Below are positions 7,181 through 33,827 of a DNA stretch of 33,827 bases, one piece after another. The notes below the pieces were generated by a model. It was given only the letters and a program-made list of their open reading frames with translations. It had not been told where the DNA came from and searched no databases. Source of the stretch: Bacillota bacterium (GTDB lineage: Bacteria > Bacillota > Clostridia > Christensenellales > Pumilibacteraceae). The position numbers were made by a program, and so were the translations under genes. Within the stretch, counting starts at the first letter, position 1; each line of letters begins with the position of its first letter. The stretch covers positions 1 through 33,827 of the forward strand of contig WQYM01000005.1 in assembly GCA_009781235.1 (NCBI GenBank), written 5' to 3'.

Positions 7181-7190
7181 CACCCACCCC

Positions 7191-7380
7191 CGTAGGGGTC
7201 GCAGTCCTCTGCGACCCGCTGCCGTTGTGCGGGCGAAAAAGCCGTGCCGGGGGGAGGTGTCGGGGGGACGGGGGTGTCGATTTCGGAAAGCAAGTTTCCG
7301 AAACCCCTTCGGGGCACTTCGCGCTGTGCGCTCGTGTCACCACGCCTCGGGCCGCCGTTCGGCGGCCCTCCGTCCCCGAG
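7191..7380 (+). repeat. Composite element copy 1: GTAGGGG palindrome plus multi-hairpin core (intergenic)
   Basis: GTAGGGGTCGCAGTCCTCTGCGACCC ... GTCGGGGGGACGGGGGTGTCGATTTCGGAAAGCAAGTTTCCGAA ... CCGTCCCCGAG. Confidence 0.9.
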
Positions 7381-7466
7381 CCGCCCAAACAAATTGCGCC
7401 CACAACAACAATTCAACGAGGCGGACAGCATTGGAAAGAAGTCGCTTACCGGGGTTGCCGATTCCC

Positions 7467-7592
7467 CGTAGGGGTCGATGCCCTCATCGACCCGCCGGAT
7501 TCCGATTCCCCCGTAGGGGTCGATCTACAGATCGACCCGCCGGAACAGTCATTTTTAATAAGGTGCGGGACGATGAGGGCATCGTCCCCTAC
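7467..7592. repeat. Three GTAGGGG-N-CGACCC palindromes (two direct, one inverted)
   Basis: CGTAGGGGTCGATGCCCTCATCGACCC, CGTAGGGGTCGATCTACAGATCGACCC, GACGATGAGGGCATCGTCCCCTAC. Confidence 0.9.
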
Positions 7593-8411: not shown

Positions 8412-8492
8412 CGTAGGGGTCGGAGCCTGCACCGACCCAATACAATATGCTTTGACGAAATCCTCGGGTCGGTGCAGGCCCCGACCCCTACG
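8412..8492. repeat. Long inverted repeat of the GTAGGGG family (27-bp arms, 1 mismatch)
   Basis: CGTAGGGGTCGGAGCCTGCACCGACCC / GGGTCGGTGCAGGCCCCGACCCCTACG. Confidence 0.92.
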
Positions 8493-8579
8493 ATTGCATC
8501 AAACACACCCAACCGTAGGGGCGGGGACCTGCACCCGCCCGTCTAACGCTTTTTTTCGGGAGGGATTTGTTAGTCCCGT

Positions 8580-11342: not shown

Positions 11343-11400
11343 ATTGTCAGGGGGACGGTGGTGTTGACAATATTGTCACTACCACCGTCCCCCTGACAAT
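11343..11400. repeat. REP-like palindrome flanking the RAYT gene (29-bp arms, 2 mismatches)
   Basis: ATTGTCAGGGGGACGGTGGTGTTGACAAT/ATTGTCACTACCACCGTCCCCCTGACAAT. Confidence 0.95.
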
Positions 11401-12152
11401 TATTCTCTAAGCATGTTTCTTAGCTTTTCCCTGCTGACCCCAAGTAACACGGCGATGTCCCTAATGCTTGCGCCGCTTCTGTCTTTCAACTCCTCGACAA
11501 GCTTTCTTACCTGATTGACGTTCATGTTTCTTCCCGGAGTAATCTTGTAATCCTTGTTAAGCTCTAAAAAAACTTTCTCACAGTCTTCGTACTCTTTATC
11601 ATCGTGCTCAAGCCAACTTGTATCGGTTCTCTCCCCCATAATCGCCGTTATATTTTCAGGAGCAATATCATAAAAGATTGCTGCTTCGTCAAAATCGACA
11701 ATTCCCGTCCTTCTTAAATAGTTCGAGTAACTCGAAAACGGATAGTCCTCCGCTTTCTTAACCATTCCGGCTTTCAACGGATTATTCTGTATGTATGCCA
11801 TGCAATAAACCAACTGTCGTTCGCTTCGAATCATCTCACTCTTAAACCTATCTCTAAAAACGTACCCAACTCTGTTATTGATTCTATTGTAGTATCTCGC
11901 ATAATCCGCGTTCACGCGCTTAAAATACAAGGCCAATTCCTGCGCGTCAACAACGCTCAGTAAAATATGCGCGTGGTTTCCCATGACGCAAAACGCAAGT
12001 ATCTTTGCGGGATAATGAATCTTATTCTCTCGCAAGCAAGTCAAATAAAACCCCTTGCAGTGGTCATCGGGAAAAACAAATTCTTTCCCAATCCCCTGCA
12101 CCATCACGTGATAGTATTTTCCGTCTAAATCTTTTCTCGCTATCCTTGGCAT
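11400..12152 (-). CDS. REP-associated tyrosine transposase (Y1_Tnp/IS200-like)
   Basis: MPRIARKDLDGKYYHVMVQG, HUH-type motif FCVMGNHAHILL, YCMAYIQNNPLKAGMV; C-terminal helix-turn-helix-like segment. Confidence 0.92.
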   Translation of the reverse strand: MPRIARKDLDGKYYHVMVQGIGKEFVFPDDHCKGFYLTCLRENKIHYPAKILAFCVMGNHAHILLSVVDAQELALYFKRVNADYARYYNRINNRVGYVFRDRFKSEMIRSERQLVYCMAYIQNNPLKAGMVKKAEDYPFSSYSNYLRRTGIVDFDEAAIFYDIAPENITAIMGERTDTSWLEHDDKEYEDCEKVFLELNKDYKITPGRNMNVNQVRKLVEELKDRSGASIRDIAVLLGVSREKLRNMLRE

Positions 12153-12200: not shown

Positions 12201-12260
12201 TATTGTCAGGGGGACGGTGGTAGTGACAATATTGTCACTACCACCGTCCCCCTGACAATA
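12201..12260. repeat. REP-like perfect palindrome (60 nt)
   Basis: TATTGTCAGGGGGACGGTGGTAGTGACAAT/ATTGTCACTACCACCGTCCCCCTGACAATA, exact inverted repeat. Confidence 0.97.
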
Positions 12261-17822: not shown

Positions 17823-20800
17823 TTACATTTCAATAAACTCGCCGCCGGAAACGGCGAAAACGCTTTTGCGGGCGACGCGCTTTTTAAGAATCCGTCCGGC
17901 TGCCAAAGCGTAAAGCCCGATTTGCCTACGATAGGAAGCCATGAATTCTTCGGCGAGTTTGCCCGTTTTATAGTCGACAATCTCCACCATACCGTCCGCG
18001 TCCTCTATAAGCAGGTCGATAACGCCTTGCAGCAGTACGCCGTTTTCCATGCAATAGATAAACGGCAGCTCGCGGTAAAATTTCCGCCTACTCACGCGCT
18101 CCGCTATTTTTTCAAGCGCGGTATTGGCGGTGTTTTTTTGCAAAAGCCGCGCAAAATCGGGGTAGTTTTTTGAGAAGCCGTCGAAATTTTCGGGGAACGG
18201 CTTAGAAAAATCGGCGGTTTCTAAGAATTTGTGATAGGCGTCCCCGACATCGGTTCCGTACGCAGGTTCGGGGGGCGGGACTCGGGGCTCGGGGTTCGGG
18301 ATTCGGGGGTCGGGGCTCGGGACTCGGGGCTCGGGATTCGGGATTCGGGGGTCGGGATTCGGGGTTCGGGATATTAACTCGTCTTCTTTTAACTGACCAC
18401 TGAAAACTTCCCACTGACCACTGTCCAGGGGCTCGGGGGTCGGGATGGTTACGTTCATTCCCGTAGGGGTCGATTTACAAATCGACCCGCGGGCTGCACA
18501 CCGTGCAACCCCTACGGCTTGCCGGCTCGCGTCCCCTCCGTCGTTTTCTCGCGTCGCTTCGCTCCCCGCGCCTGTAAAAAACATGCCGCCGGCATATTTT
18601 TGCGGCTTCGCCGCACTCCGCCAGCGCATTTTTCGTTTTTCGTTTTTCGTTTCATTTGTAATTTGTTCCGGGACGCCCGATGGGTCGTTCCCTACGGAAA
18701 ATCCCCCTTCGCGCGCCAGTTGCGTTACCGTCGTCTTTACGGGCAATTGCGGGTGCGGGTACACAAAATCCGTGAACTTTCGGACGCAGGCAACAAAGTT
18801 TTCGCTCCCCTGCTTTTCCGGGGGGAGGTGTCGGGGGGACGGGGGCGTTGATTCAAAAATGCAAGATTTTTGAACCCCTGCGGGGCACTTCGCTACGCTC
18901 GTGTCACCACGCCTCGGGTCGCCGGACGGCGACCCTCCGTCCCCGGGCAGAGCCGCAACCAAGGATTCCTGATTCCCCGTAGGGCGGGGACTTGCTCCCG
19001 CCGTTGGGCTTGCTCCCGCCCCTACGGATTGCCGGCTCGCGTCCCCTCCATCGTTTTTCGTTTTTCGTTTTTCGTTTTTCGTTATATTTACCATCGCCGG
19101 GTACAGCCAGTCAAGCCAGCAGCGCGCGTCTATTCCCTCTTTGGGCTCGTAATCCTTCTTGATGCGGCTAAACAGCGCGAGATGGAATTTAGCACGCGTA
19201 CAAGCGACGTACAAAATCCGCATTTCCTCCTCGCACAGTTTTTTGCGCACCTCCAAGACCGCCCGGCGGTACAGGCTGGTTTTGACGGTTTGCCCGCCAA
19301 AAAGATCAAACCACTTAAGCACCGCGCCGAACTTTACATCCAAAATGCAGTCCCTTTTTACATCGTCGAGGTTGAAATTTTTTGAGAGGTTCGGGAGTAT
19401 TACGAACGGGAACTCGAGCCCCTTGGCGGCGTGCACCGTCATAATCCGCACCGCGTCCGCCTCTCCGCCGCCCGAAAGCTTAACCGCGCCCGCCTCCGCC
19501 GCCAAAAGTGCGGCGGCAAAGTCGCGCCCCGCCGAAAGAGCGGAGAGCCTGTCCAAAAACTTAGACAGCCCGTCCGCGGCGTTATGGGCGTCCGGAAGGC
19601 TGAAGGCATATTTAAAATAGTCGTGCTCGGCGCAAACCTTGCCTGCCAAATCCGCAAAGCTGAGTACCCGGGAAAGGTTTTCATAGCGCGCAAGGTTTGC
19701 AAACAGGGCTTGGAGTTTTTGAGAAAGTTCGGGATTCGGGGGTCGGGGGTCGGGGGTCGGGGCTCGGGGGTCGGAGCTCGGGGGTAAGGTATCAGGGCAC
19801 AAGGCACAAGGCACAGGTAATGGATAACGCATATCACCGATACCTGTGACTTGTGCCCTGATACCTATGCCCTCACTCCCATTCTTTCCGTCTTCTTTCA
19901 ACTGACAACTGACAACTGAAAACTGACAACTGTCTCCGGGATTCGGGACGGTTGCGCACATTCCCGTAGGGGTCGAAAGTCCATCCTGCGACCCGCTGCC
20001 GTTGTACGAGGAAAGTGCCGTGCCGGGGGGAGGGGTTGTCACGGGGACATAGTACTTGACAACCCTAACTTTTCCGGGGGGAGGTGTCGGGGGGACGGGG
20101 ACGTCGATTTCGGAAAGCAAGTTTCCGAAACCCCTTCGGGGCACTTCGCGCTGTGCGCTCGTGTCGCCGTAAACCCGTCCCCGGGCAGAGCCGTAACCAC
20201 CACGTCTCGCGTCGCCGTGCGGCGGCCCTCCGTCCCCGGGCAGAGCCGTGCCTGAGCATTCCCGATTCCCCGTAGGGCGGGGACTTGCCCCCGCCGTAAA
20301 GCACGCCACGTCCCCGGGCAAAGCCGTAACCTCACCATCCGCCCCTACGCCCTGACTCCTAACCAAAAATTCCCTCCGACATTCCTCATTCCTAATTTCT
20401 AATTCCTCACTTTCCTGTCCACTGAAAACTTCCCACTGACCACTGACCCCCGTAGGGGTCGATTTACAAATCGACCCGCCGTCCCCGGGCAGAGCCGTAA
20501 TCAAGGATTCCCAATCCCCCGTAGAGGTCGGGTCGCCGGACGGCGACCCTCCGTCCCCCTGCTGTGCCGTAACCGTACAATATTTTTCACACGCCTCAAA
20601 AAACGGCCAATCGCCGCCATCCGGTTGGGCATCCGCCCACAGGCGAATTTGAGCCAATTCCCCGTCGGAAAAATAGCCGCCCAACGGAGACTTTAACACG
20701 GAGACAAGCGCGATATCGTCGCGGCGGTTGTCGATCAGCCGCAGGTAATTGATCAGCCCCCGGATCGCCGGGTTTTCCGCGCCGTCCGCGCTTTTTTGCA

Positions 20801-23207
20801 TCGTTACGGGAACGCCCGCGCGCCGCAGCTTTTCGCTCAAAACCCCGGCAAACTTCCCCATCGAGCGCAGCAGCACCGCGATGTCGCCGAATTCCGCCGC
20901 CCGTTCCGCGCCGTCCTCGGCGATAAACCGCTTTTTAAGCGACAAAATGTGCGCCGTCACCGCATCGGCCTCGGCAGCTTCGGCGGAGGTGTCCGCATCG
21001 GCATCGGGGAATACGTGGTTTTTTACGCTGTACGGGGCTCGGGGGTCGGGCGTCGGGGTTCGGGGTTCGGGACGAGGGAAATTAGGAATTAGGAATGAGG
21101 AGTGAGGAACGGTGGAGGGATTGGGTGTGTTCATTCCCGTAGGGGGCGATGTCCTCGCTGGCCCGCCGGTTGCCAAGTCCCCCGCCAGCGCTGCAAGGCC
21201 TCTCTGCTCCCCGCCTACCGTTGTGCGGGCGCTCATTGCCGTGCCGGGGGGAGGTGTCAGGGGGACGGGGGTGTTGATGCCGAAAGGCAAGCTTTCGCCC
21301 CCCCTACGGGGCACTTCGCGCTGCGCGCTCGTGTCACCACGCCTCGGGTCGCCGTTCGACGACCCTCCGTCCCCGGGCAGAGCCGCAGCCACGGAGTCCC
21401 TCCGACATTCCTCACTCCTCACTCCTAACTCCTCATTCTTCCGACATTCCTCACTCCTCACTCCTAACTCCTCATTCTTCCGACATTCCTCACTCCTCAC
21501 TCCTAACTCCTCATTTCCCACAAGCCGGCACACCACCGGCTCGACGCCCAGCGCGCCCAAGCCCGTCTCGTTAAAGCAAGCCGTGCCCGCATAATCGACG
21601 CCGCCAAACTCGCGGGTCATCGCATCACTAAACACGCGGTCGCAAAAGCGCAATATCCCGCTGTCGCTGCGAAAATTTGCGTTTAAGCGGATTACGAACT
21701 TTTCGTCCTCATAACCCGCAAATATCCCCGGGTCGGAAAGCCGAAAGCCGTAAATGGACTGCTTGACGTCGCCCACGTAAAACCTTTTTGCCGCAATGCG
21801 GGAAAAAATTGCGTCCTGCAAGGGGTTGACGTCCTGAAACTCGTCCACCATCAGCCACCGGAACCTTGCGCCGATTTCCGCAGCTGCATCGGGGTTGCAC
21901 AAAATGCGGTACGCCGCGCGCTCAATGTCGTTAAAATCGCACCGGCTTTTGCGGCGCTTTTTTGCAGCAAAAATTTTTGCGGCGCTTTTAGCAAGCTCGA
22001 CCAAAAGCGCTGTATGCCCCGCCGCAAGCGCAGGGTCGGCGTACGACAGCGCCTCGTCGCGCTCCGCGCAAAAATCCTTGTACGCGCCCCGCAACTTTTT
22101 ATAGCGCTCGTAAAGCGCGGCCTGCGCATCGGACGCGGGTTTAATGACCGGGAGCCTTTTAAGCTCGCCCGCATCGGCAGCAACCTCGTCGTAAAAAACC
22201 GCGACAGAAGCGGCGCAAGACACAAAGCCTGCGTGCTCGCAAGTCGTTTTTAACTCTGCCGCACGCCGTAAAAACCCCCCAAGCAGGCTTTTATAATTCT
22301 CGGAAAGCGCCGCGATATGCCCGGCATGGCCTTGCGTCGCCGCAGCCGATTTTTCAAACCACGCGTCGGGGTCGGGGTGAATGGCGGAGAATTCGTATAT
22401 CCTTTTTACGATAGCCGCCATCCGTTTGTCGTTTCGGCGCGGCGAAAGGATTTCAAAAAGCTCCAAAAAATCGCCTTGGGTCCGGGGTTCGGAGCTCGGG
22501 GCCCGGGGTTCGGGATTCGGGGTTCGGGATATTAACTCGTCTTCTTTTAACTGTCCACTGTCCACCGTCCACTGTCCACTGTCTTGCGCCGCTTCGGCAA
22601 TCGCCTCGTCTACGGAAAGGTTTAGCAGTGCGTCCGACTCGGCCTCGTCCAACACCTCGAACGCGGGGTCGATGTCGTCGGCATAATAAAAATATTCGCG
22701 CGCGATAGAGGCGCAAAACGCGTCTATCGTGGAAATCTGCGCCGTCGGAAGCTGCCCGATGGCACGGGAAGCCCAAGTGGGGGGGCGGGGGTTGGGGATC
22801 GGGGATCGGGGCTCTGTGGTTGGGTATAAGGTATCAGGGCACAAGGCACAAGGCACAGGTAATTGATTTTGCATATCACCGATACCTGTGCCTTGTGCCT
22901 TGATACCTATGCCTTTTTCGGAAGTCGGGATTCGGGACATAAATCCATCTTCTTTCAATTGTCCACCGCCCACTGTCCACTGTCCACTAAGCTGCTGAAG
23001 CAGCTTAGTGCGCATATCGGCAGCCGCGGCTTTGGTGAACGTGCAGACTACCATGGAAGAAAGCTCCTCCCCTGCCGTCAAAAGCCTGAGGATGCGCTGA
23101 ATCATCACGGTCGTTTTACCGCTGCCGGCAGAGGCGGAAACTAAAATTTCGTCGCAGTCGCTTAAGATGGCCGCACGCTGTGCGGGAGTGAATCGGTCTA
23201 AATCCAT
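17823..23207 (-). CDS. addA: ATP-dependent helicase/nuclease subunit A, expanded to 1794 aa by in-frame repeat inserts
   Basis: ILVSASAGSGKTTVMIQRIL, VDEFQDVNPLQDAIF, FYVGDVKQSIYGFR, LNANFRSD, IMTVHAAKGLEFPFVI, YVACTRAKFHLALF, VEIVDYKTGK. Confidence 0.95.
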   Translation of the reverse strand: MDLDRFTPAQRAAILSDCDEILVSASAGSGKTTVMIQRILRLLTAGEELSSMVVCTFTKAAAADMRTKLLQQLSGQWTVGGGQLKEDGFMSRIPTSEKGIGIKAQGTGIGDMQNQLPVPCALCPDTLYPTTEPRSPIPNPRPPTWASRAIGQLPTAQISTIDAFCASIAREYFYYADDIDPAFEVLDEAESDALLNLSVDEAIAEAAQDSGQWTVDSGQLKEDELISRTPNPEPRAPSSEPRTQGDFLELFEILSPRRNDKRMAAIVKRIYEFSAIHPDPDAWFEKSAAATQGHAGHIAALSENYKSLLGGFLRRAAELKTTCEHAGFVSCAASVAVFYDEVAADAGELKRLPVIKPASDAQAALYERYKKLRGAYKDFCAERDEALSYADPALAAGHTALLVELAKSAAKIFAAKKRRKSRCDFNDIERAAYRILCNPDAAAEIGARFRWLMVDEFQDVNPLQDAIFSRIAAKRFYVGDVKQSIYGFRLSDPGIFAGYEDEKFVIRLNANFRSDSGILRFCDRVFSDAMTREFGGVDYAGTACFNETGLGALGVEPVVCRLVGNEELGVRSEECRKNEELGVRSEECRKNEELGVRSEECRRDSVAAALPGDGGSSNGDPRRGDTSAQREVPRRGGESLPFGINTPVPLTPPPGTAMSARTTVGGEQRGLAALAGDLATGGPARTSPPTGMNTPNPSTVPHSSFLIPNFPRPEPRTPTPDPRAPYSVKNHVFPDADADTSAEAAEADAVTAHILSLKKRFIAEDGAERAAEFGDIAVLLRSMGKFAGVLSEKLRRAGVPVTMQKSADGAENPAIRGLINYLRLIDNRRDDIALVSVLKSPLGGYFSDGELAQIRLWADAQPDGGDWPFFEACEKYCTVTAQQGDGGSPSGDPTSTGDWESLITALPGDGGSICKSTPTGVSGQWEVFSGQESEELEIRNEECRREFLVRSQGVGADGEVTALPGDVACFTAGASPRPTGNRECSGTALPGDGGPPHGDARRGGYGSARGRVYGDTSAQREVPRRGFGNLLSEIDVPVPPTPPPGKVRVVKYYVPVTTPPPGTALSSYNGSGSQDGLSTPTGMCATVPNPGDSCQFSVVSCQLKEDGKNGSEGIGIRAQVTGIGDMRYPLPVPCALCPDTLPPSSDPRAPTPDPRPPNPELSQKLQALFANLARYENLSRVLSFADLAGKVCAEHDYFKYAFSLPDAHNAADGLSKFLDRLSALSAGRDFAAALLAAEAGAVKLSGGGEADAVRIMTVHAAKGLEFPFVILPNLSKNFNLDDVKRDCILDVKFGAVLKWFDLFGGQTVKTSLYRRAVLEVRKKLCEEEMRILYVACTRAKFHLALFSRIKKDYEPKEGIDARCWLDWLYPAMVNITKNEKRKTKNDGGDASRQSVGAGASPTAGASPRPTGNQESLVAALPGDGGSPSGDPRRGDTSVAKCPAGVQKSCIFESTPPSPRHLPPEKQGSENFVACVRKFTDFVYPHPQLPVKTTVTQLAREGGFSVGNDPSGVPEQITNETKNEKRKMRWRSAAKPQKYAGGMFFTGAGSEATRENDGGDASRQAVGVARCAARGSICKSTPTGMNVTIPTPEPLDSGQWEVFSGQLKEDELISRTPNPDPRIPNPEPRVPSPDPRIPNPEPRVPPPEPAYGTDVGDAYHKFLETADFSKPFPENFDGFSKNYPDFARLLQKNTANTALEKIAERVSRRKFYRELPFIYCMENGVLLQGVIDLLIEDADGMVEIVDYKTGKLAEEFMASYRRQIGLYALAAGRILKKRVARKSVFAVSGGEFIEM
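18265..18700. repeat. In-frame composite insert A5b in addA
   Basis: GGGATTCGGGG-type arrays, TCTTCTTTTAACTGACCACTG module, GTAGGGGTCGATTTACAAATCGACCC palindrome (18462-18488); between host segments TVTQLAREGGF and YGTDVGDAYHKFLE. Confidence 0.85.
18820..19085. repeat. In-frame composite insert A5a in addA, contains one multi-hairpin core
   Basis: GTCGGGGGGACGGGGGCGTTGATTCAAAAATGCAAGATTTTTGAA ... CCGTCCCCGGGCAGAGCCG, then TTTTTCG array. Confidence 0.88.
19728..20572. repeat. In-frame composite insert A4 in addA, the largest (~280 codons)
   Basis: Arrays, GGTATCAGGGCACAAGG inverted-repeat module, core copy, GTAGGGGTCGATTTACAAATCGACCC (20451-20477). Confidence 0.88.
21030..21518. repeat. In-frame composite insert A3 in addA with core and 3x39-bp array (21402-21518)
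   Basis: Encodes NEELGVRSEECRK x3 and ALPGDGGSSNGDPRRGDTSAQREVPRRG. Confidence 0.92.
22478..22585. repeat. In-frame insert A2 in addA
   Basis: CGGGGTTCGGGATTCGGGGTTCGGGATATTAACTCGTCTTCTTTTAACTGTCCACTGTCCACC. Confidence 0.85.
22775..22984. repeat. In-frame insert A1 in addA
   Basis: GGGGATCGGGGATCGGGG array, GGTATCAGGGCACAAGGCACAAGGCACAGGTA ... TACCTGTGCCTTGTGCCTTGATACC, then TGTCCAC array. Confidence 0.85.
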
Positions 23208-23209
23208 GA

Positions 23210-26200
23210 TTAGTCCTCTTTAGAAAAAATCTCTTCCCGCCCTACCTTTGCATACTTGCGAACCCTGCCTTCCCCGTCCGCGCCAAAGCCGCACATCGCG
23301 CCAAAGCTACAGTAATCGCACACACCCTCGGCGGGGCTTGGCGCAATGTAACCCCCGCACATCTCCTCTAAAGCCTGCTGCGCCACCCGCACGGCGTATT
23401 CCGTCAGCCCGCCAAGCTCCCCCGTGCCCATGCCATACTCCGACTTTGCCATCGGAATAACGCCGTCCGCACCGGGCTTAACATTGCGCTTCGCCTCGAT
23501 GACCGGGCTCTTATACCCGGGCTCGATCAAGCGGCGGTCTGCGGCCGCCAAAAGCTCCCCGGAGTCATTATACACCCCGCATAGGCTGCGCGGCGGCTCA
23601 CCCGCCTCGATTAGCGGCTTTGAGAGCGGAAAGTAAAACATGCCGGCCCCTTGATAGCCGTTTTCCTCCAGCACCTTGGCGTACAGCGGAAGCTGGAGCG
23701 CGCGCCCGTAGTAGAGCTCTGTAGCCGAAAACTTGGGGAGCTTGCCGGTTTTATAATCGATAACGCGCGCAAACCCCCCAAAGGTATCGACGCGGTCAAT
23801 CTTGCCGCGCAGATAAACCGGGGAGGGGCGGGATTCGGGTCGGGGAGAATTAGGAATTAGGAGTGAGGAGTGAGGAACGGTGGAGAGATTGGGTGTGTTC
23901 ATTCCCGTAGGGGTCGATGTCCTCGCTGGCCCGCCGGTTGCCAAGTCCCCCGTAGGGGGCGCAAGTCCTCTCTGCAGCCCGCTGCCGTTGTGCGGTGGCT
24001 CTTGCCGTGCCGGGGGGAGGTGTCGGGGGGACGGGGACGTTGATTCAAAAAGGCAAGCTTTTTGAACCTCCTGCGGAGGCACTCCGCTGCGCTCCGTGTC
24101 ACCGTACCCGTCCCCGGGCAGAGCCGCAGCCACGGAATCCCTCCGACGTTCCTCACTCCTCACTCCTAACTCCTCATTCTTCCGACATTCCTCACTCCTA
24201 ATTCCTAACTCCTCACTCTTCCGACATTCCTCACTCCTCACTCCTAACTCCTCACTTTCCTGACCCCTAGCCCCTAAAAACGCCACCGTTTTTAGGTCGT
24301 TGCCGCGCGCGTGGCCGAACCGCAGCTCTAGACCCAACGGTTTAAACGCGCCCGCCGTGTACGATTCCGCGATGCGCCCGGCAAGGCGCGCGGCCTCGTC
24401 TACCGCGCGCGCCAAGAGGCGCTTGTTTTTTTCCAGCAGCGCGCCGAATTCTTCTTTAGCAATCGAGCCGGCAATCGCCCTCATGCGGTTTTCGGCGTCC
24501 TTAAAGCCGTCTAAAAAGCAGGCTTCGACAAAACGTTCCGCCGCCCGGTGCAAAAAGCTGCCGATGTCGGTAGGCCTGATTTCGCCCGTGTCGCGCTCTT
24601 TTAGCCGCAGCCCCCCGGCGGCAAAGCACCGGTATGGGCAGGCCAAATATTCCTCGAGCCGCGTGGCCGAAACGGTATTATCGCGAAAATAGAGCAAGGG
24701 AGTCCGGGGCTCGGGGCTCGGGGGTCGGGATTCGGGACGAGGAAAATTAGGAATTAGTAGTGAGGAGTGAGGAATAGCGGAGGGATTGGGCATGTTGTTT
24801 CCCGTAGGGGTCGGAGCCCGGCAGTTCGACCCGCTGCCGTTGTGCGGTAACTCTTGCCTTGCCGGGGGGAGGTGTCGGGGGGACGGGGGTGTTGGTTCAA
24901 AAAGGCAAGCTTTTTGAACCTCCTGCGGAGGCACTTCGCGCTGTGCGCTCGTGTCACCACGCCTCGGGCCGCCGCTTAGCGGCTCTCCGTCCCCGGGCAG
25001 AGCCGTAACCGCAGGACTTCGATTCTCCGCCAACGGCGATGCCCTCATCGCCCCGCCGTCCCCCTGCTGTGACGTAACCAATTTACAAAGCTCCGCCGTC
25101 ATCGGCAAGCCCCTGCCGCCTGCCCGCATGTCCGACAGCGCGCCGAGCAAAAGCTCCGCCGCGTTTGAAAGGGTGGAGATTTCGGCCGCCATTTCATTCA
25201 TTTTGGCCGCGTCGTTATGTTCCACCGCGTTGCGGAACGAAAGCCCGTCCGCTAAGCTCCGCCGCGTTTTTTCGACGGAATTGTGTACGACGCTTTTTGC
25301 GCCGCGCGTAACTGCGGACGCCAAATCCGAAATCCGGCTGTCCCCCGCAAGCGAGTACGCCAAAAAAAGCCGGTCGGCGGACGCTAAAACGCGCACCGCC
25401 TCGCACCGGGCGGCGCGAGCCAGCGCATCCGAATCCGGCCCGGCAGCCTTTCCCGCCGCCGAAAGAACGGCGTTATCCGCGTCGGAAAAAAGCCCCCCGG
25501 CTTCCCGGGCTTCAGGCAGAACGCCCTCGCAAAAATCGACGGCGAACACCTCTTTAAACCTCCCCGCGCGGAACGTTTCCGCGCCGCCCACCACTACCGC
25601 GTCCGCCGTTTCGTTGACGAGCGAAATGCCGGTCGCGCCCACACCCTCGGAGAAGAGGGAGAAGAGGGAATGAGGAGTGAGAAGTGAGGGGTGAGGAACG
25701 GCGGATGGGGAATAGGGGATGGGGGATGGGAATACAAATCCGTCTTCTTTTAACTGATCATTGACCACTGACCCCTGACCACTGACCCCCGCCAGCGCTG
25801 CAAGGCCTCTCTGCAGCCCGCTGCCGTTGTGTGAGAAAACTGCCGTGCCGGGGGGGAGGTGTCGGGGGGACAGGGACGTTGATTCAAAAAGGCAAGCTTT
25901 TTGAACCTCCTGCGGAGACACTTCGCTGCGCTCCGTGTCACCGTACCCGTCCCCGGGCAGAGCCGTAACCTCACCATCCGCCGCTACACCCTGATTCCTA
26001 ACCCAAAAATCCCTCCGACATTCCTCACTCCTCACTCCTAACTCTTCATTCTTCCGACATTCCTCACTCCTAATTCCTAACTCTTCATTCTTCCGACATT
26101 CCTCACTCCTCACTCCTAACTCCTCACTCACCTCCCCCCTAACCCCTGAAAGCTGACCCCTGTCCACTGACTCCTGGCCCCTGAAAACCGAAGTTAAAAA

Positions 26201-27598
26201 CTCCGCGGCCTCCAAGAGCCCGTCGTAAATTTGCCCCAAATCCGCGCCCGCGATTTCCGAGAGTTCCGCCGTTTTCTCTTTTGCACCGCATAAGGTAAAT
26301 ACGCCGCGCAAAAAATCACGGAACGCCTCGCCCGTTTTGGCGGACGCGAAAAGCTTGGCGAATTCGGCCAAGAACCCAACGAGCGAGGCGCGCACATTCT
26401 CGGCGGTTTTGGATTCGGGACTCTGGATTCGGGACTCTGACAAATGTGACAAATGGGGACGGATCCATTTGTCATTTTGACAAATGGATCCGTCCCCATT
26501 TGTCACTGGCCACTGACCACTGTCCCCCGCAAACTCCTCCAAAAACCCCTTGTAATTAACGCCCCGGCTCAATACGTACTCCTCAAAAATATCTGCGGCA
26601 CGCTTGTCGATGCCGGAATAATAGTTTTTTGACAATGCAATCATGTCTTGGCGGCGAAAGCGCCCGGCCGCCGAAACGCAAAGCTCTAAAAACCGGAACA
26701 GCTCGGTATCGCGCAAGTTAAGCTTGCGGTCGATGAAAAACGGGATATCAAATTCGGTTAAAATCCGCTCGATCGGCGCGTAATCGGCGGGGGGCGCCAG
26801 GATGCAAAAATCCCGGAACCGTGCGCCCTCTATCACGCCGCGCCGGATGCGCTTTGCCGTCGCTTTGACGCGGTCAGAAATCTCGGCCGCCTCAAAAAAC
26901 TCCATCTCGCCGAATGCATACGTCAGGCTTTCGACGTCGAAAAAGGTATAGGAGGCGGCTTTATCTTCAAAAATCGCCAAAACGTCGCGCTCTAACGCGG
27001 TAAACCGGTCGAAACCCGCGACATAAAAATGCGTGCACGAGAGGTCGTCGTAGGCAATATCGCGTGCAAGCAGCCGCATCCGCCCGGCCAAATCGACGAA
27101 TTTGTTTTCCGTTTCGGCCAAAAACCGCGTGTAGACGCGTGCGATGTCGGCCAGCTTTAAGCCTGCCGCGCCGCCTTTGCCGACAAAATCGGACGGCGCC
27201 AAGCCCGCGTTTGCCGCGACCGAGATTGTTTCGTACATTTTAGCGGCAAAGCCCGGAAGGCGCGCGCTGCTTTTAAAAACGCGGAAATCCTTTTTTACCT
27301 CGTCTACGATGCCGCGCACCAGCATCACCGCGCCGCCCGCCGATAAAAACCCGGGGTCGCGGCGCACAAATTTTTGAAAAAGCCGGTTAAACGTCAGCAC
27401 CTCGACGTCAAACGCGCCGGTTCCCCTTGTAAACAAAAATCGCTCCATGTAAATGGAGCATTTATCCGGGACGACAACGTAATGTTTCACGGCCAAATCG
27501 ACCGTGCGCGCGCATAAGCAATCGCGCACGGCCAAAAATGACGCGTAAAAGTCAGTAAAGGTTTCGACCCGGATTCCCACACCGTAAGTATACGGCAT
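23210..27598 (-). CDS. addB: ATP-dependent nuclease subunit B, expanded to 1462 aa by in-frame repeat inserts
   Basis: C-terminal nuclease RVIDYKTGKLPKFSATELYYGRALQLPLYAKVLEE; cysteines CPYRC and CDYCSFGAMC; adjacent to addA. Confidence 0.92.
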   Translation of the reverse strand: MPYTYGVGIRVETFTDFYASFLAVRDCLCARTVDLAVKHYVVVPDKCSIYMERFLFTRGTGAFDVEVLTFNRLFQKFVRRDPGFLSAGGAVMLVRGIVDEVKKDFRVFKSSARLPGFAAKMYETISVAANAGLAPSDFVGKGGAAGLKLADIARVYTRFLAETENKFVDLAGRMRLLARDIAYDDLSCTHFYVAGFDRFTALERDVLAIFEDKAASYTFFDVESLTYAFGEMEFFEAAEISDRVKATAKRIRRGVIEGARFRDFCILAPPADYAPIERILTEFDIPFFIDRKLNLRDTELFRFLELCVSAAGRFRRQDMIALSKNYYSGIDKRAADIFEEYVLSRGVNYKGFLEEFAGDSGQWPVTNGDGSICQNDKWIRPHLSHLSESRIQSPESKTAENVRASLVGFLAEFAKLFASAKTGEAFRDFLRGVFTLCGAKEKTAELSEIAGADLGQIYDGLLEAAEFLTSVFRGQESVDRGQLSGVRGEVSEELGVRSEECRKNEELGIRSEECRKNEELGVRSEECRRDFWVRNQGVAADGEVTALPGDGYGDTERSEVSPQEVQKACLFESTSLSPRHLPPGTAVFSHNGSGLQRGLAALAGVSGQGSVVNDQLKEDGFVFPSPIPYSPSAVPHPSLLTPHSLFSLFSEGVGATGISLVNETADAVVVGGAETFRAGRFKEVFAVDFCEGVLPEAREAGGLFSDADNAVLSAAGKAAGPDSDALARAARCEAVRVLASADRLFLAYSLAGDSRISDLASAVTRGAKSVVHNSVEKTRRSLADGLSFRNAVEHNDAAKMNEMAAEISTLSNAAELLLGALSDMRAGGRGLPMTAELCKLVTSQQGDGGAMRASPLAENRSPAVTALPGDGEPLSGGPRRGDTSAQREVPPQEVQKACLFEPTPPSPRHLPPARQELPHNGSGSNCRAPTPTGNNMPNPSAIPHSSLLIPNFPRPESRPPSPEPRTPLLYFRDNTVSATRLEEYLACPYRCFAAGGLRLKERDTGEIRPTDIGSFLHRAAERFVEACFLDGFKDAENRMRAIAGSIAKEEFGALLEKNKRLLARAVDEAARLAGRIAESYTAGAFKPLGLELRFGHARGNDLKTVAFLGARGQESEELGVRSEECRKSEELGIRSEECRKNEELGVRSEERRRDSVAAALPGDGYGDTERSGVPPQEVQKACLFESTSPSPRHLPPARQEPPHNGSGLQRGLAPPTGDLATGGPARTSTPTGMNTPNLSTVPHSSLLIPNSPRPESRPSPVYLRGKIDRVDTFGGFARVIDYKTGKLPKFSATELYYGRALQLPLYAKVLEENGYQGAGMFYFPLSKPLIEAGEPPRSLCGVYNDSGELLAAADRRLIEPGYKSPVIEAKRNVKPGADGVIPMAKSEYGMGTGELGGLTEYAVRVAQQALEEMCGGYIAPSPAEGVCDYCSFGAMCGFGADGEGRVRKYAKVGREEIFSKED
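23825..24290. repeat. In-frame composite insert B4 in addB with core and 3x39-bp array (24143-24259)
   Basis: Encodes SEELGVRSEECRK-type repeats and ALPGDGYGDTERSGVPPQEVQKACLFESTSPSPRHLPP. Confidence 0.92.
24700..25080. repeat. In-frame composite insert B3 in addB with core
   Basis: Encodes ALPGDGEPLSGGPRRGDTSAQREVPPQEVQKACLFEPTPPSPRHLPP. Confidence 0.9.
25655..26190. repeat. In-frame composite insert B2 in addB with core and 3x39-bp array (26015-26131)
   Basis: Encodes NEELGVRSEECRK-type repeats and ALPGDGYGDTERSEVSPQEVQKACLFESTSLSPRHLPP. Confidence 0.92.
26446..26506. repeat. REP-like perfect hairpin inside addB coding sequence (29-bp stem, 3-nt loop)
   Basis: GTGACAAATGGGGACGGATCCATTTGTCA-TTT-TGACAAATGGATCCGTCCCCATTTGTCAC. 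Confidence 0.96.
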
Positions 27599-27739: not shown

Positions 27740-27812
27740 TTTTTATCCGCATTTGTAATTTGTAATTTGTAATTTGTAATTTGCAATTTGTAATTTGTAA
27801 TTTGTAATTAGT
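27740..27812. repeat. (ATTTGTA)n heptad array between scpA and addB
   Basis: ATTTGTAATTTGTAATTTGTAATTTGTAATTTGCAATTTGTAATTTGTAATTTGTAATTAG. Confidence 0.92.
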
Positions 27813-31467: not shown

Positions 31468-33243
31468 TTACCTCAGCGTCGGGTGTTTTCCGGCGGCGAA
31501 GTCGAGGCCGGTTAAATCCCAAACCGCGGCGTCCCAGCCGAGTTTGTCCGTATAGAACGATACGGAATTAAGGTCTTCCAAGGTACATACCAGGGTTGTG
31601 CTTCCGGAATCCGACGGGTTATGGTATTGGCCGGTGGATTCCCGGTAAAATTCCTGTCCTTCGTAACGGTAGGATTGCGCCCTGTGCCCTATCGCGCAAA
31701 GGCCGGCCATCGCCATCAAGCTGCCGATATTGATATCGGTTACCTCGGTGATATTGCCGGTCGCAAAGCAATTGAAAATCTTGCCCTTCGTTCTAGCCGG
31801 ATAATTGTCCGCATTATAACCGGCTAAGCCCCCCGCAGAATTCACGTATTCAATGGTTATATGGACGGACGCATAACAATTCTGCACCGTAGCCTTTTCT
31901 ATATACCCAACTAAACCGCCCGCAAACATAAATAGACTCATCGCCGGATTCGGATGCTTATTATACAAGTTCACGTTGCCGCCGGCCGCGTAACAATTTT
32001 CTACCAAGCCGTCTTCGGCAACAACTCCTACCAAGCCGCCGGCCATACAAGAAATAGCGGAGGAATTGGTTACGTCGATCATAAAGTTCTCCACACCCAA
32101 ATTTCGGATAACTCCGCGGCTTGCGCCGAATAAACCCACGCAATCATAAAAAACCGTAATGTTAAAATTGCTTACCGTATGGCCGCTCCCATTAAAAATG
32201 CCGGAAAAATACACGGTCTCCTTACCGCTTACAAATGCGCCTATCCCGATCGGCATCCACTCCGCACCCTCTAAATCAATATCCGCCGTCAACATGAAAT
32301 ACGTATCGGCAAAATCCATCCCAAGGTTCACCAATACGGATAACGCCCATAAGTCCTCGGCGTCGGCAATCAAAAAGGGGTATGCCTCCGTGCCCCATCC
32401 GCCTTCTTCCACCTCGTATTCGACCGGAAGCGACCAACCGGAATCGGCGTAGTTTTCTCCGTCGCCAGCCGCCAAAACCTTGATGGGATATATCCCGGGC
32501 GCCATCAATGCCGGTATCACTAAGTCGAACTCGGGCGCATCGGCGGTGCCGATTTCCGTGCCGTCGATGCTCACCTTATAGCCGGAAGCGCCCGAAACCG
32601 CGTCCCACGTAAGCGATGCGTCGTTAATCTGCAGGTTCGACGGCACGGCAAGGCTGACGACGGGGCGAATCACTTTATATTCAAAAACCGCAGACCAATC
32701 GGAATCGACGTAGTCTTCCCCGTCGCCGACCGCTTTTACCTTGATTTGATACGCCTTTGCTTCCGTTAAATCCGATAACGGGTAACTTGTAAGCTGCGCG
32801 GCGTATTCCGCGCCGTCGATGCTCACCTTGTAGCCGTTTGCGCCCGAAACCGCATCCCACGTAAGCAACGCGTCGTTAATCTGCAGGTTCGACGGCACGG
32901 CAAGGCTGACGACGGGGCGAATCACTTTATACTCAAAAACATTAGACCAATCGGAATCGACGTAGTTTTTCCCGTCGCCGACCGCTTTCACCTTGATTTG
33001 GTACGCCTTTGCTTCCGCAAAATCCGATAACGGATAACTTGTAAGCTGCGCGGCGTATTCCGCGCCGTCGATGCTCACCTTATAACCGGAAGCGTTGTCT
33101 ACGGGCGTCCATGAAAGAACCGCGCCGTCCGCTTGAAGGTTTTGAGGCGCGGCCAGCGGCCCGGCTTGGCGGCAAGCGGAAAAACATAACGCGGCAATCA
33201 ATGAAACGATCGTAATGCATACGGCTTTTTGCAAATTTTTCAT
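31468..33243 (-). CDS. Lipoprotein with fibronectin-III-like repeats and a GLUG-motif-like region
   Basis: Lipobox LIAALCFSAC; repeats LQINDALLTWDAVSGANGYKVSIDGAEYAAQLTSYPLSDL; GGLVGYIEKATVQNCYASVHITIEYVNSAGGLAGYN. Confidence 0.85.
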   Translation of the reverse strand: MKNLQKAVCITIVSLIAALCFSACRQAGPLAAPQNLQADGAVLSWTPVDNASGYKVSIDGAEYAAQLTSYPLSDFAEAKAYQIKVKAVGDGKNYVDSDWSNVFEYKVIRPVVSLAVPSNLQINDALLTWDAVSGANGYKVSIDGAEYAAQLTSYPLSDLTEAKAYQIKVKAVGDGEDYVDSDWSAVFEYKVIRPVVSLAVPSNLQINDASLTWDAVSGASGYKVSIDGTEIGTADAPEFDLVIPALMAPGIYPIKVLAAGDGENYADSGWSLPVEYEVEEGGWGTEAYPFLIADAEDLWALSVLVNLGMDFADTYFMLTADIDLEGAEWMPIGIGAFVSGKETVYFSGIFNGSGHTVSNFNITVFYDCVGLFGASRGVIRNLGVENFMIDVTNSSAISCMAGGLVGVVAEDGLVENCYAAGGNVNLYNKHPNPAMSLFMFAGGLVGYIEKATVQNCYASVHITIEYVNSAGGLAGYNADNYPARTKGKIFNCFATGNITEVTDINIGSLMAMAGLCAIGHRAQSYRYEGQEFYRESTGQYHNPSDSGSTTLVCTLEDLNSVSFYTDKLGWDAAVWDLTGLDFAAGKHPTLR

Positions 33244-33312: not shown

Positions 33313-33371
33313 TGACAAATGGGGACGGGTCTATTTGCCAAATTGGCAAATAGACCCGTCCCCATTTGTCA
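33313..33371. repeat. REP-like perfect hairpin (29-bp stem, 1-nt loop) overlapping the dacA stop codon
   Basis: TGACAAATGGGGACGGGTCTATTTGCCAA-A-TTGGCAAATAGACCCGTCCCCATTTGTCA. Confidence 0.96.
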
Positions 33372-33827
33372 CCATCCGGCAATCGCATCGCCTACGATGT
33401 CTAAATACGTTTTCTTCTTGACGTCGTTTTCGGCGACGAGGTTTACGCGGCCCGCCTCGACGCCGTCCACTTTTACGACCAGCTCGCCCGCCACCTGATT
33501 CATCGCGACGGGCGCGGTGAGTTTTTGCACCGTCGGCTCGCTCGCCACCTCGCGCTTGCCCTTCTTGCCGAAATAATACAAATCGTCCGCAGGCACTACG
33601 TTCACAAATTCCGCCTTGCCTTTTTCGACGCGCACGGGGTCAACGACCGCCGCGCCCTTTTCGACAAGTCGGCGCGTCTCGTAATTGGCAAAGCCGTAGT
33701 TAAACAGCTTGGCGTTTTGGGCGTTGCGCTCTTTAGAGGTCGCCGCGCCCATCACCACGCTTATGAGCCGGGTTTGCCCGCGCTTAGCGGTGGCGGAGAG
33801 GCAGTACATCGCCTCGGTGGTAAAGCC
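33369..33827 (-). CDS. dacA: D-alanyl-D-alanine carboxypeptidase (PBP5/DacA family), 5' end beyond the window
   Basis: GFTTEAMYCLSATAKRGQTRLISVVMGAATSKERNAQNAKLFNYGFANYET. Confidence 0.88.
   Translation of the reverse strand, partial: GFTTEAMYCLSATAKRGQTRLISVVMGAATSKERNAQNAKLFNYGFANYETRRLVEKGAAVVDPVRVEKGKAEFVNVVPADDLYYFGKKGKREVASEPTVQKLTAPVAMNQVAGELVVKVDGVEAGRVNLVAENDVKKKTYLDIVGDAIAGW

Follow-up and report, generated by a model that had tools for sequence, protein, structure and literature searches.

The bcr1 element of Bacillus cereus and the pneumococcal BOX element are species-specific, modular, folded and dispersed repeats, and the element described here resembles them in this general description. 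REPINs, dispersed inverted doublets of REP sequences that form a hairpin or possibly a 'clover' and in which compensatory changes are common, accompany RAYT genes (REP-associated tyrosine transposases) flanked by the same REP (Bertels & Rainey 2011, PMC3116915). In TIRYT and TIRtron repeats, RAYT-like genes have flanking TIRs, often as dimers, with the motif GGGGWSAS, and in-frame REPs are carried by recBCD-type genes, uvr genes and DNA ligase, where the encoded inserts are mostly 20-30 aa long and clusters reach 43 to 82 aa (Di Nocera 2013, PMC3733652). Rickettsia palindromic elements (RPE) are palindromic mobile elements of about 150 bp that lie in frame in unrelated genes and encode a conserved peptide (Ogata 2000, 2002; reviewed in PMC10969869). 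All of these features, including the non-GTAG GGGGWSAS TIRs, are already published. As far as the literature consulted goes, what is new here is a four-way spacer conserved across two genera with different stems, an argument from the symmetry of wobble pairs, and the size of the inserts.

In this study, we have explored a 33,827-nt stretch of DNA from a Bacillota bacterium (the window), together with the rest of its genome (the home genome), in which a hairpin with a GCAAG loop at 7282 had been singled out from the sequence alone as a covarying structure. This hairpin, HP1, forms an arm of a four-way junction that has no linker bases. We put at about 75% the probability that the hairpin is part of a REPIN-like element, mobile at the DNA level but non-autonomous, which is probably spread by a transposase, with a RAYT as the candidate. 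Like REPINs, the element is an inverted REP doublet with a clover fold, compensatory changes and dispersed copies, in a genome with RAYT genes flanked by the same REP. Unlike REPINs, its arms are without the GTAG tag, many of its copies lie within genes, and its spacer is a conserved module of three or four hairpins in which the GCAAG (or TGTGG) loop hardly varies; the spacer of published REPINs is less conserved (PMC3116915). The TIRYT/TIRtron account, as far as consulted, makes no mention of a clover of this kind inside the repeat (PMC3733652).

A four-way clover and where it occurs

A hand alignment of 36 copies shows a single architecture, made of a closing stem P1, three hairpins (HP1, HP2 and HP3) and an optional HP4. 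In P1, GGGGACGGG-G-ACG-T-YGA pairs with TCR-C-CGT-n-CCCGTCCCC except at T·C and G·A mismatches, and this stem closes the three-hairpin junction with no linker bases. HP1 has either 9 bp with the loop GCAAG or 6 bp with the loop TGTGG; HP2 takes the forms CCCC-TNC-GGGG, CCTCC-TGC-GGAGG and CCC-TATC-GGG; HP3 is CAC..GCGC-NNN-GCGC..GTG, and HP4, in long copies, is GGGYCGCC....GGCGRCCC. The neighbouring stems quoted in the sequence-only reading (the first two HP2 forms and GGGYCGCC/GGCGRCCC) are therefore real, and so are its four versions of HP1: TTTCGGAAA-GCAAG-TTTCCGAAA lies at 7281-7303 and 20108-20130, TTCAAAAAT-GCAAG-ATTTTTGAA at 18852-18874, TTCAAAAAG-GCAAG-CTTTTTGAA at 24044, 24896 and 25883, and TGCCGAAAG-GCAAG-CTTTCGCCC at 21278. 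The GCAAG pentamer itself is common (113 in the window); as a loop on stems of at least 9 bp it occurs in the window in element copies only.

The element is found at seven places in the window, all on the + strand. Copy 1 (7258..7377 from REP arm to REP arm; covariance-model match 7259-7355, 83.9 bits) is intergenic and of the long form, with the 5' side of P1 at 7258-7280, HP1 at 7281-7303 (GCAAG at 7290-7294), HP2 at 7304-7314, HP3 at 7315-7336, HP4 at 7349-7368 and the 3' side of P1 running to 7377. The other six lie within the open reading frames of addA and addB, inside inserts and antisense to the gene: copies 2 (18829..18944, long), 3 (20085..20182, short) and 4 (21255..21374, long, with the TGCCGAAAG stem) in addA, and copies 5 (24021..24115, short), 6 (24873..24994, long) and 7 (25860..25954, short) in addB. 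Genome-wide counts of clovers and REPs come from BLAST, patterns and a covariance model; the last, built from nine copies, finds about 38 clovers in the home genome, and BLAST of the element region gives 62 matches there, fragments included.

Folding of a short copy, whether as RNA or as DNA, gives the four-way junction as the structure of lowest energy; other folded copies have P1 and most hairpins in common, and the remainder differs in part. DNA folding of the short copy gives z=-3.8 on the + strand and z=-4.9 on the - strand, and RNA folding of the element gives z of about -2.7 to -2.9. An unpaired position in P1 is kept in 30 of 33 copies, as T.C, C.C or swapped to C.T, and in E. coli, TnpA_REP depends on mismatches within its REP (PMC8266576). 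Group I and group II introns and other known RNAs were rejected as candidates, as no Rfam family matches the window at its gathering score; the best hit at E≤1 is a chance match to rox1 (E=0.46).

Among 74 genomes of the family, the covariance model finds the clover in two: the home genome and a genome of another genus (G017), which holds 19 diverged copies of the fold. BLAST in 60 relatives gave no copies, and the G017 family was revealed only by the covariance model. Its stems differ, the loop being GCAAG (or GTAAG) in one subfamily and shorter in the other, and the ends, for example TGTCATGGGGAC..GTCCCCATGACA, are intact in most copies. High numbers of the REP head TGTCRNGGGGACRG are confined to the same two genomes (128 in the home genome, 23 in G017 and at most 2 elsewhere among the 74). 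A search around the only RAYT found in G017 showed no REP flanks, so its mobiliser would be either missing from the assembly or another enzyme. In a phylum sample of 399 genomes no other clover genome appeared among the ten candidates scored per genome, and there was no clover match in plasmids or phages (by BLAST) or in viral contigs (by pattern). We also observed, at 1501-1700 of one G017 locus (L108), a clover 3' REP arm duplicated in tandem (GTGTCAACGAGTCCGTCCCCATGACAC twice).

REP ends and RAYT genes

The arms of the element begin with TGTCRGGGGGACGG, the 5' arm being TGTCRGGGGGACGG-N5-TYGA and the 3' arm a degenerate mirror, TCR-C-CGT..CCCGTCCCC, which in the home genome ends in ..CCCGTCCCCGGGCAG instead of ..CCGTCCCCCTGACA. 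This 14-mer occurs 106 times in the home genome, against 0 for its reversed control, and most occurrences form inverted pairs separated by roughly 30-130 nt. Such pairs form simple REPINs whose N5 covaries (TGGTG/CACCA, ACTCA/TGAGT, ACCCA/TGGGT), and in the clover itself P1 covaries; in both, an inverted REP doublet pairs across a spacer. The same REP flanks RAYT genes on contigs C5 and C44. In the window, a RAYT of 250 aa (11400..12152, - strand; Pfam Y1_Tnp, 4.4e-9), with an HAH motif and the tyrosine in YIQNNP, adjoins a simple REPIN, TGTCAGGGGGACGGTGGTGTTGACA...CCGTCCCCCTGACA, at 11345..11398 (a weak match to the element's covariance model, E=0.003) and has a second at 12204..12257 on its other side; the C44 gene is bracketed in the same way. 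The window RAYT matches TnpArep (PDB 4er8, 7e-5) and scores 75.7 bits against NF047646 REP_Tyr_transpos, whose cut-off is 80. It is one of four RAYT paralogs in the genome, the other three being 62-71% identical to it, and the paralogs fall just under the cut-off of the NCBI REP-associated tyrosine transposase model. From the counts of TGTCRGGGGGACGG, the inverted pairs and the flanking of RAYT genes, we therefore read the clover as a REPIN whose spacer has turned into a conserved set of hairpins. Speaking against this reading are the degenerate 3' arm of the home copies, the RAYT of G017 without such flanks and the RAYT scores just under the cut-off.

The classical tag is missing at the REP 5' end, where the arms begin with TGTCRGGGGGAC. 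As RAYTs with non-GTAG TIRs have been described, we claim the element as a relative of GTAG REPs and not as a member. The TIRYT motif GGGGWSAS (PMC3733652) is fitted by GGGGTCAG, which flanks the RAYT on contig C129, and by GGGGACAG, found in some home copies and in the G017 elements; GGGGACGG, the commonest form, found in most home copies, is one position off. GTAG is carried here by a different repeat, a second palindrome family, CCGTAGGGGTCG...CGACCCGCC, in which it adjoins the hairpin as in classical REPs. This family flanks many clover copies and is found in the window at 7187-7217, 7463-7545, 8412-8545, 18459-18516, 20260-20300 and other sites.

Other REP-like sequences were seen alongside these. 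The C129 RAYT gene of the home genome (L068, 1252-1420 and 2200-2233) has GCTGTCACGGGGTCAGGCTTACTGACAGC stem-loops on its flanks; they are a REP of a third type and fit GGGGWSAS. A RAYT-like open reading frame on contig C97 of the same genome (L072, 1435-2058) holds two in-frame copies of the GTAG palindrome, read as TPVGVAVLGDP and SPGTATPTGKS. Long near-perfect hairpins, GTGACAAATGGGGACGG...CCGTCCCCATTTGTCA, form a further REPIN-like family in the window, at 26446-26505 (within addB) and 33313-33372.

Covariation in RNA or in DNA

Using 44 distinct copies from two genera, in an alignment fitted to the structure, we found 94.9% of cells to be paired, against 82.5% in shuffles and 27-56% in slid controls. 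Change on both sides is seen at 20 of 35 pairs (12.1 in shuffles), the covariation score is 0.327 (shuffles, 0.113), and none of 500 shuffles reaches the observed paired fraction, two-sided pair count or covariation score. Since this alignment was fitted to the structure, an independent test with a tree-based null was made on a hand alignment of 33 home-genome copies, which is itself laid out by stems. Structure pairs are there 8 of the top 9 among all column pairs; four HP1 pairs reach E≤0.033, and P1 pairs are individually weaker, at E of about 0.7 over all pairs. The earlier observation that stems vary while their pairing is kept thus holds with more copies. The multibranched fold proposed with it stands as well, as a perfect four-way junction; whether that fold belonged to RNA or to single-stranded DNA had been left open, and the evidence favours DNA.

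The way in which the stems change bears on this choice. HP1 is 99% paired, with two-sided change at 8 of its 9 pairs in the 44 copies, and occurs in about ten stem types with one-sided intermediates at no pair; helix 4 shows no one-sided change in this set. Among the non-Watson-Crick cells over all stems, HP4 included, G·T accounts for 16 and A·C for 17. The test, which gives p=0.001 when a 3:1 excess is assumed, covers 33 cells that are partly non-independent, five of the A·C cells being one variant. Selection as RNA should favour G·T if it acted on the + strand and A·C, read on the + strand, if it acted on the - strand; neither is seen, so neither strand looks RNA-selected. Rewriting of a whole stem in a single event has been proposed for template switching during the replication of DNA (PMC8794818), and this could explain both the missing HP1 intermediates and the wobble symmetry. 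Inversion of the loop (GCAAG to CTTGC), a possible outcome of template switching, was seen in none of the aligned copies.

One possible reading would be that of a structured non-coding or cis-regulatory RNA (an attenuator, a 3'-UTR stabiliser or a guide-like RNA) maintained for its RNA fold, and both the strong covariation and the low-energy multibranched fold as RNA speak for it. We consider this unlikely in view of the lack of preference for G·U over A·C, the change of HP1 stems without intermediates and the lack of an Rfam match. In addition, the genic copies are always antisense, so that the mRNA carries the complement, and the clover is restricted to two of the 74 family genomes and absent from 398 other genomes in a shallow phylum sample. 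Very improbable, to our mind, is that the element is a plain repeat in which a few old subfamilies, copied often, give the appearance of covariation. The copies are indeed related and HP1 falls into about ten types, but the tree-based null keeps this relatedness and still leaves the four HP1 pairs, the slid controls lose most of the pairing, and copies of the other genus have other stems in the same position (TTGAAAAAT/ATTTTTCAA, TTGAGGCAA..TTGCCTCAA). We favour mobile DNA over structured RNA as the nature of the element, because of its REP/RAYT-type ends, its dispersed copies, the absence of a wobble preference, the exchange of HP1 without G-U intermediates and its antisense position in genes.

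Copies in reading frames and what they imply

The addA (17823..23207, - strand, 1794 aa) and addB (23210..27598, - strand, 1462 aa) genes are much longer than their same-genus orthologs, whose open reading frames are 1068 aa and 1009 aa (stop to stop for the latter). The orthologs align as contiguous blocks that leave five inserts in AddA and four in AddB, of 111-870 nt and 3849 nt in total, with approximate boundaries. Across these nine inserts the gene frame is free of stops, whereas the two other frames contain 50 and 54. Genome-wide, 14 clover copies lie within genes, three each in addA and addB among them. In ligA, the clover sits in a 96-aa insert flanked by the two Pfam halves; the assembly is 87% complete, and no other PF01653 gene was found in it. 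In uvrC the clover is in a 166-aa insert, and a further insert of 86 aa is without a clover. Inserts of 88 aa in whiA, 112 aa in a methionine-synthase-like gene and 130 aa in a P-type ATPase-like gene (named by eye, with no Pfam match) also hold it, as do a GH94 protein and two other genes. In six recounted inserts outside addAB, the gene frame again lacks stops while the two alternative frames have 20 and 30, so that 15 inserts (5883 nt) sum to 0 against 70 and 84.

As with the intragenic REPs of other bacteria, recBCD-type genes, a uvr gene and DNA ligase are among the hosts (PMC3733652), while the inserts here are larger than the published ones: a single insert, with the other repeats that it contains, can reach about 290 aa, and one AddA carries roughly 700 additional aa. 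Unlike RPE with their conserved peptide (PMC10969869), at least two different element frames are used: the six addAB copies are read in two frames (SPRHLPP and VPLTPPPG). All 14 genic copies are antisense. The probability of this is about 1.7e-4, as derived from open-frame counts of the element core alone for copies that may be non-independent; the bias fits strand-specific insertion and is otherwise unexplained.

Heptamer arrays and further repeats are also present in the inserts. The window has many arrays built of 7-nt units (TTCGGGA, AACTGAC, TTTTTCG, TAATTTG and GTGAGGA types), at 18251-18430, 19726-19937, 21400-21519, 22479-22587, 24131-24277, 26008-26190, 27745-27810 and other sites. 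Some lie within addA and addB and are open as 7-aa repeats, such as NPESRIPNPESR and DSGQWTVDSGQ, and two array types are connected by TTAAAAGAAGACG (QLKED), a core that recurs. An over-representation of heptamer repeats in bacteria has been reported (PMC4692102). Elsewhere in the window, at 32554-33057, a 252-nt unit is duplicated in tandem with 92% identity between the copies.

That the genic element is removed before the protein is made, by self-splicing or ribosome bypass, might be suggested by the long inserts in ligA, uvrC and addAB and by a folded element within the mRNA, but it is most unlikely given that the 15 inserts keep the gene frame open, which removal would not require, and that neither a group I/II intron nor any other Rfam family matches the window.

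We therefore return to a mobile element of the REPIN kind. Its fold, its covariation, the sharing of its REP ends with repeats beside RAYT genes, its dispersal and the open frames are shown by the data, and the following mechanism can be proposed. Two inverted REP arms pair into P1, and the spacer folds into three hairpins, or four in long copies, to give the four-way clover. One of the genomic RAYTs could recognise the REP ends in single-stranded folded DNA, excise the element and insert it elsewhere. The stems may drift as pairs, one arm templating the other at the DNA level by template switching or whole-hairpin exchange, and covariation could arise without RNA function because one arm templates the other in DNA. 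Genic copies would survive only if neither their length nor their sequence closes the reading frame, and would presumably be translated as extra loops. More tentatively, and we think this possible rather than probable, the clover as a whole, and not just its REP arms, could be the folded DNA recognised in transposition, with hairpins rewritten whole by template switching and strand-specific insertion placing all genic copies antisense.

In conclusion, our results emphasize that a structured RNA is not identified by its covariation alone, since a clover of mobile DNA can produce this signal as well, and that the ratio of G·T to A·C together with missing intermediates offers a simple way to tell the two apart. 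AddAB, UvrC and LigA, with large repeat-derived inserts and intact frames, are a clear case outside Rickettsia. This opens the way to tests of how repair and replication proteins tolerate such inserts and of whether a RAYT can mobilise a clover-shaped REPIN. If the clover were indeed recognised as a whole, this would make the genome an extreme example of how folded DNA that is translated can invade proteins from within, the product of the only ligA found among them.
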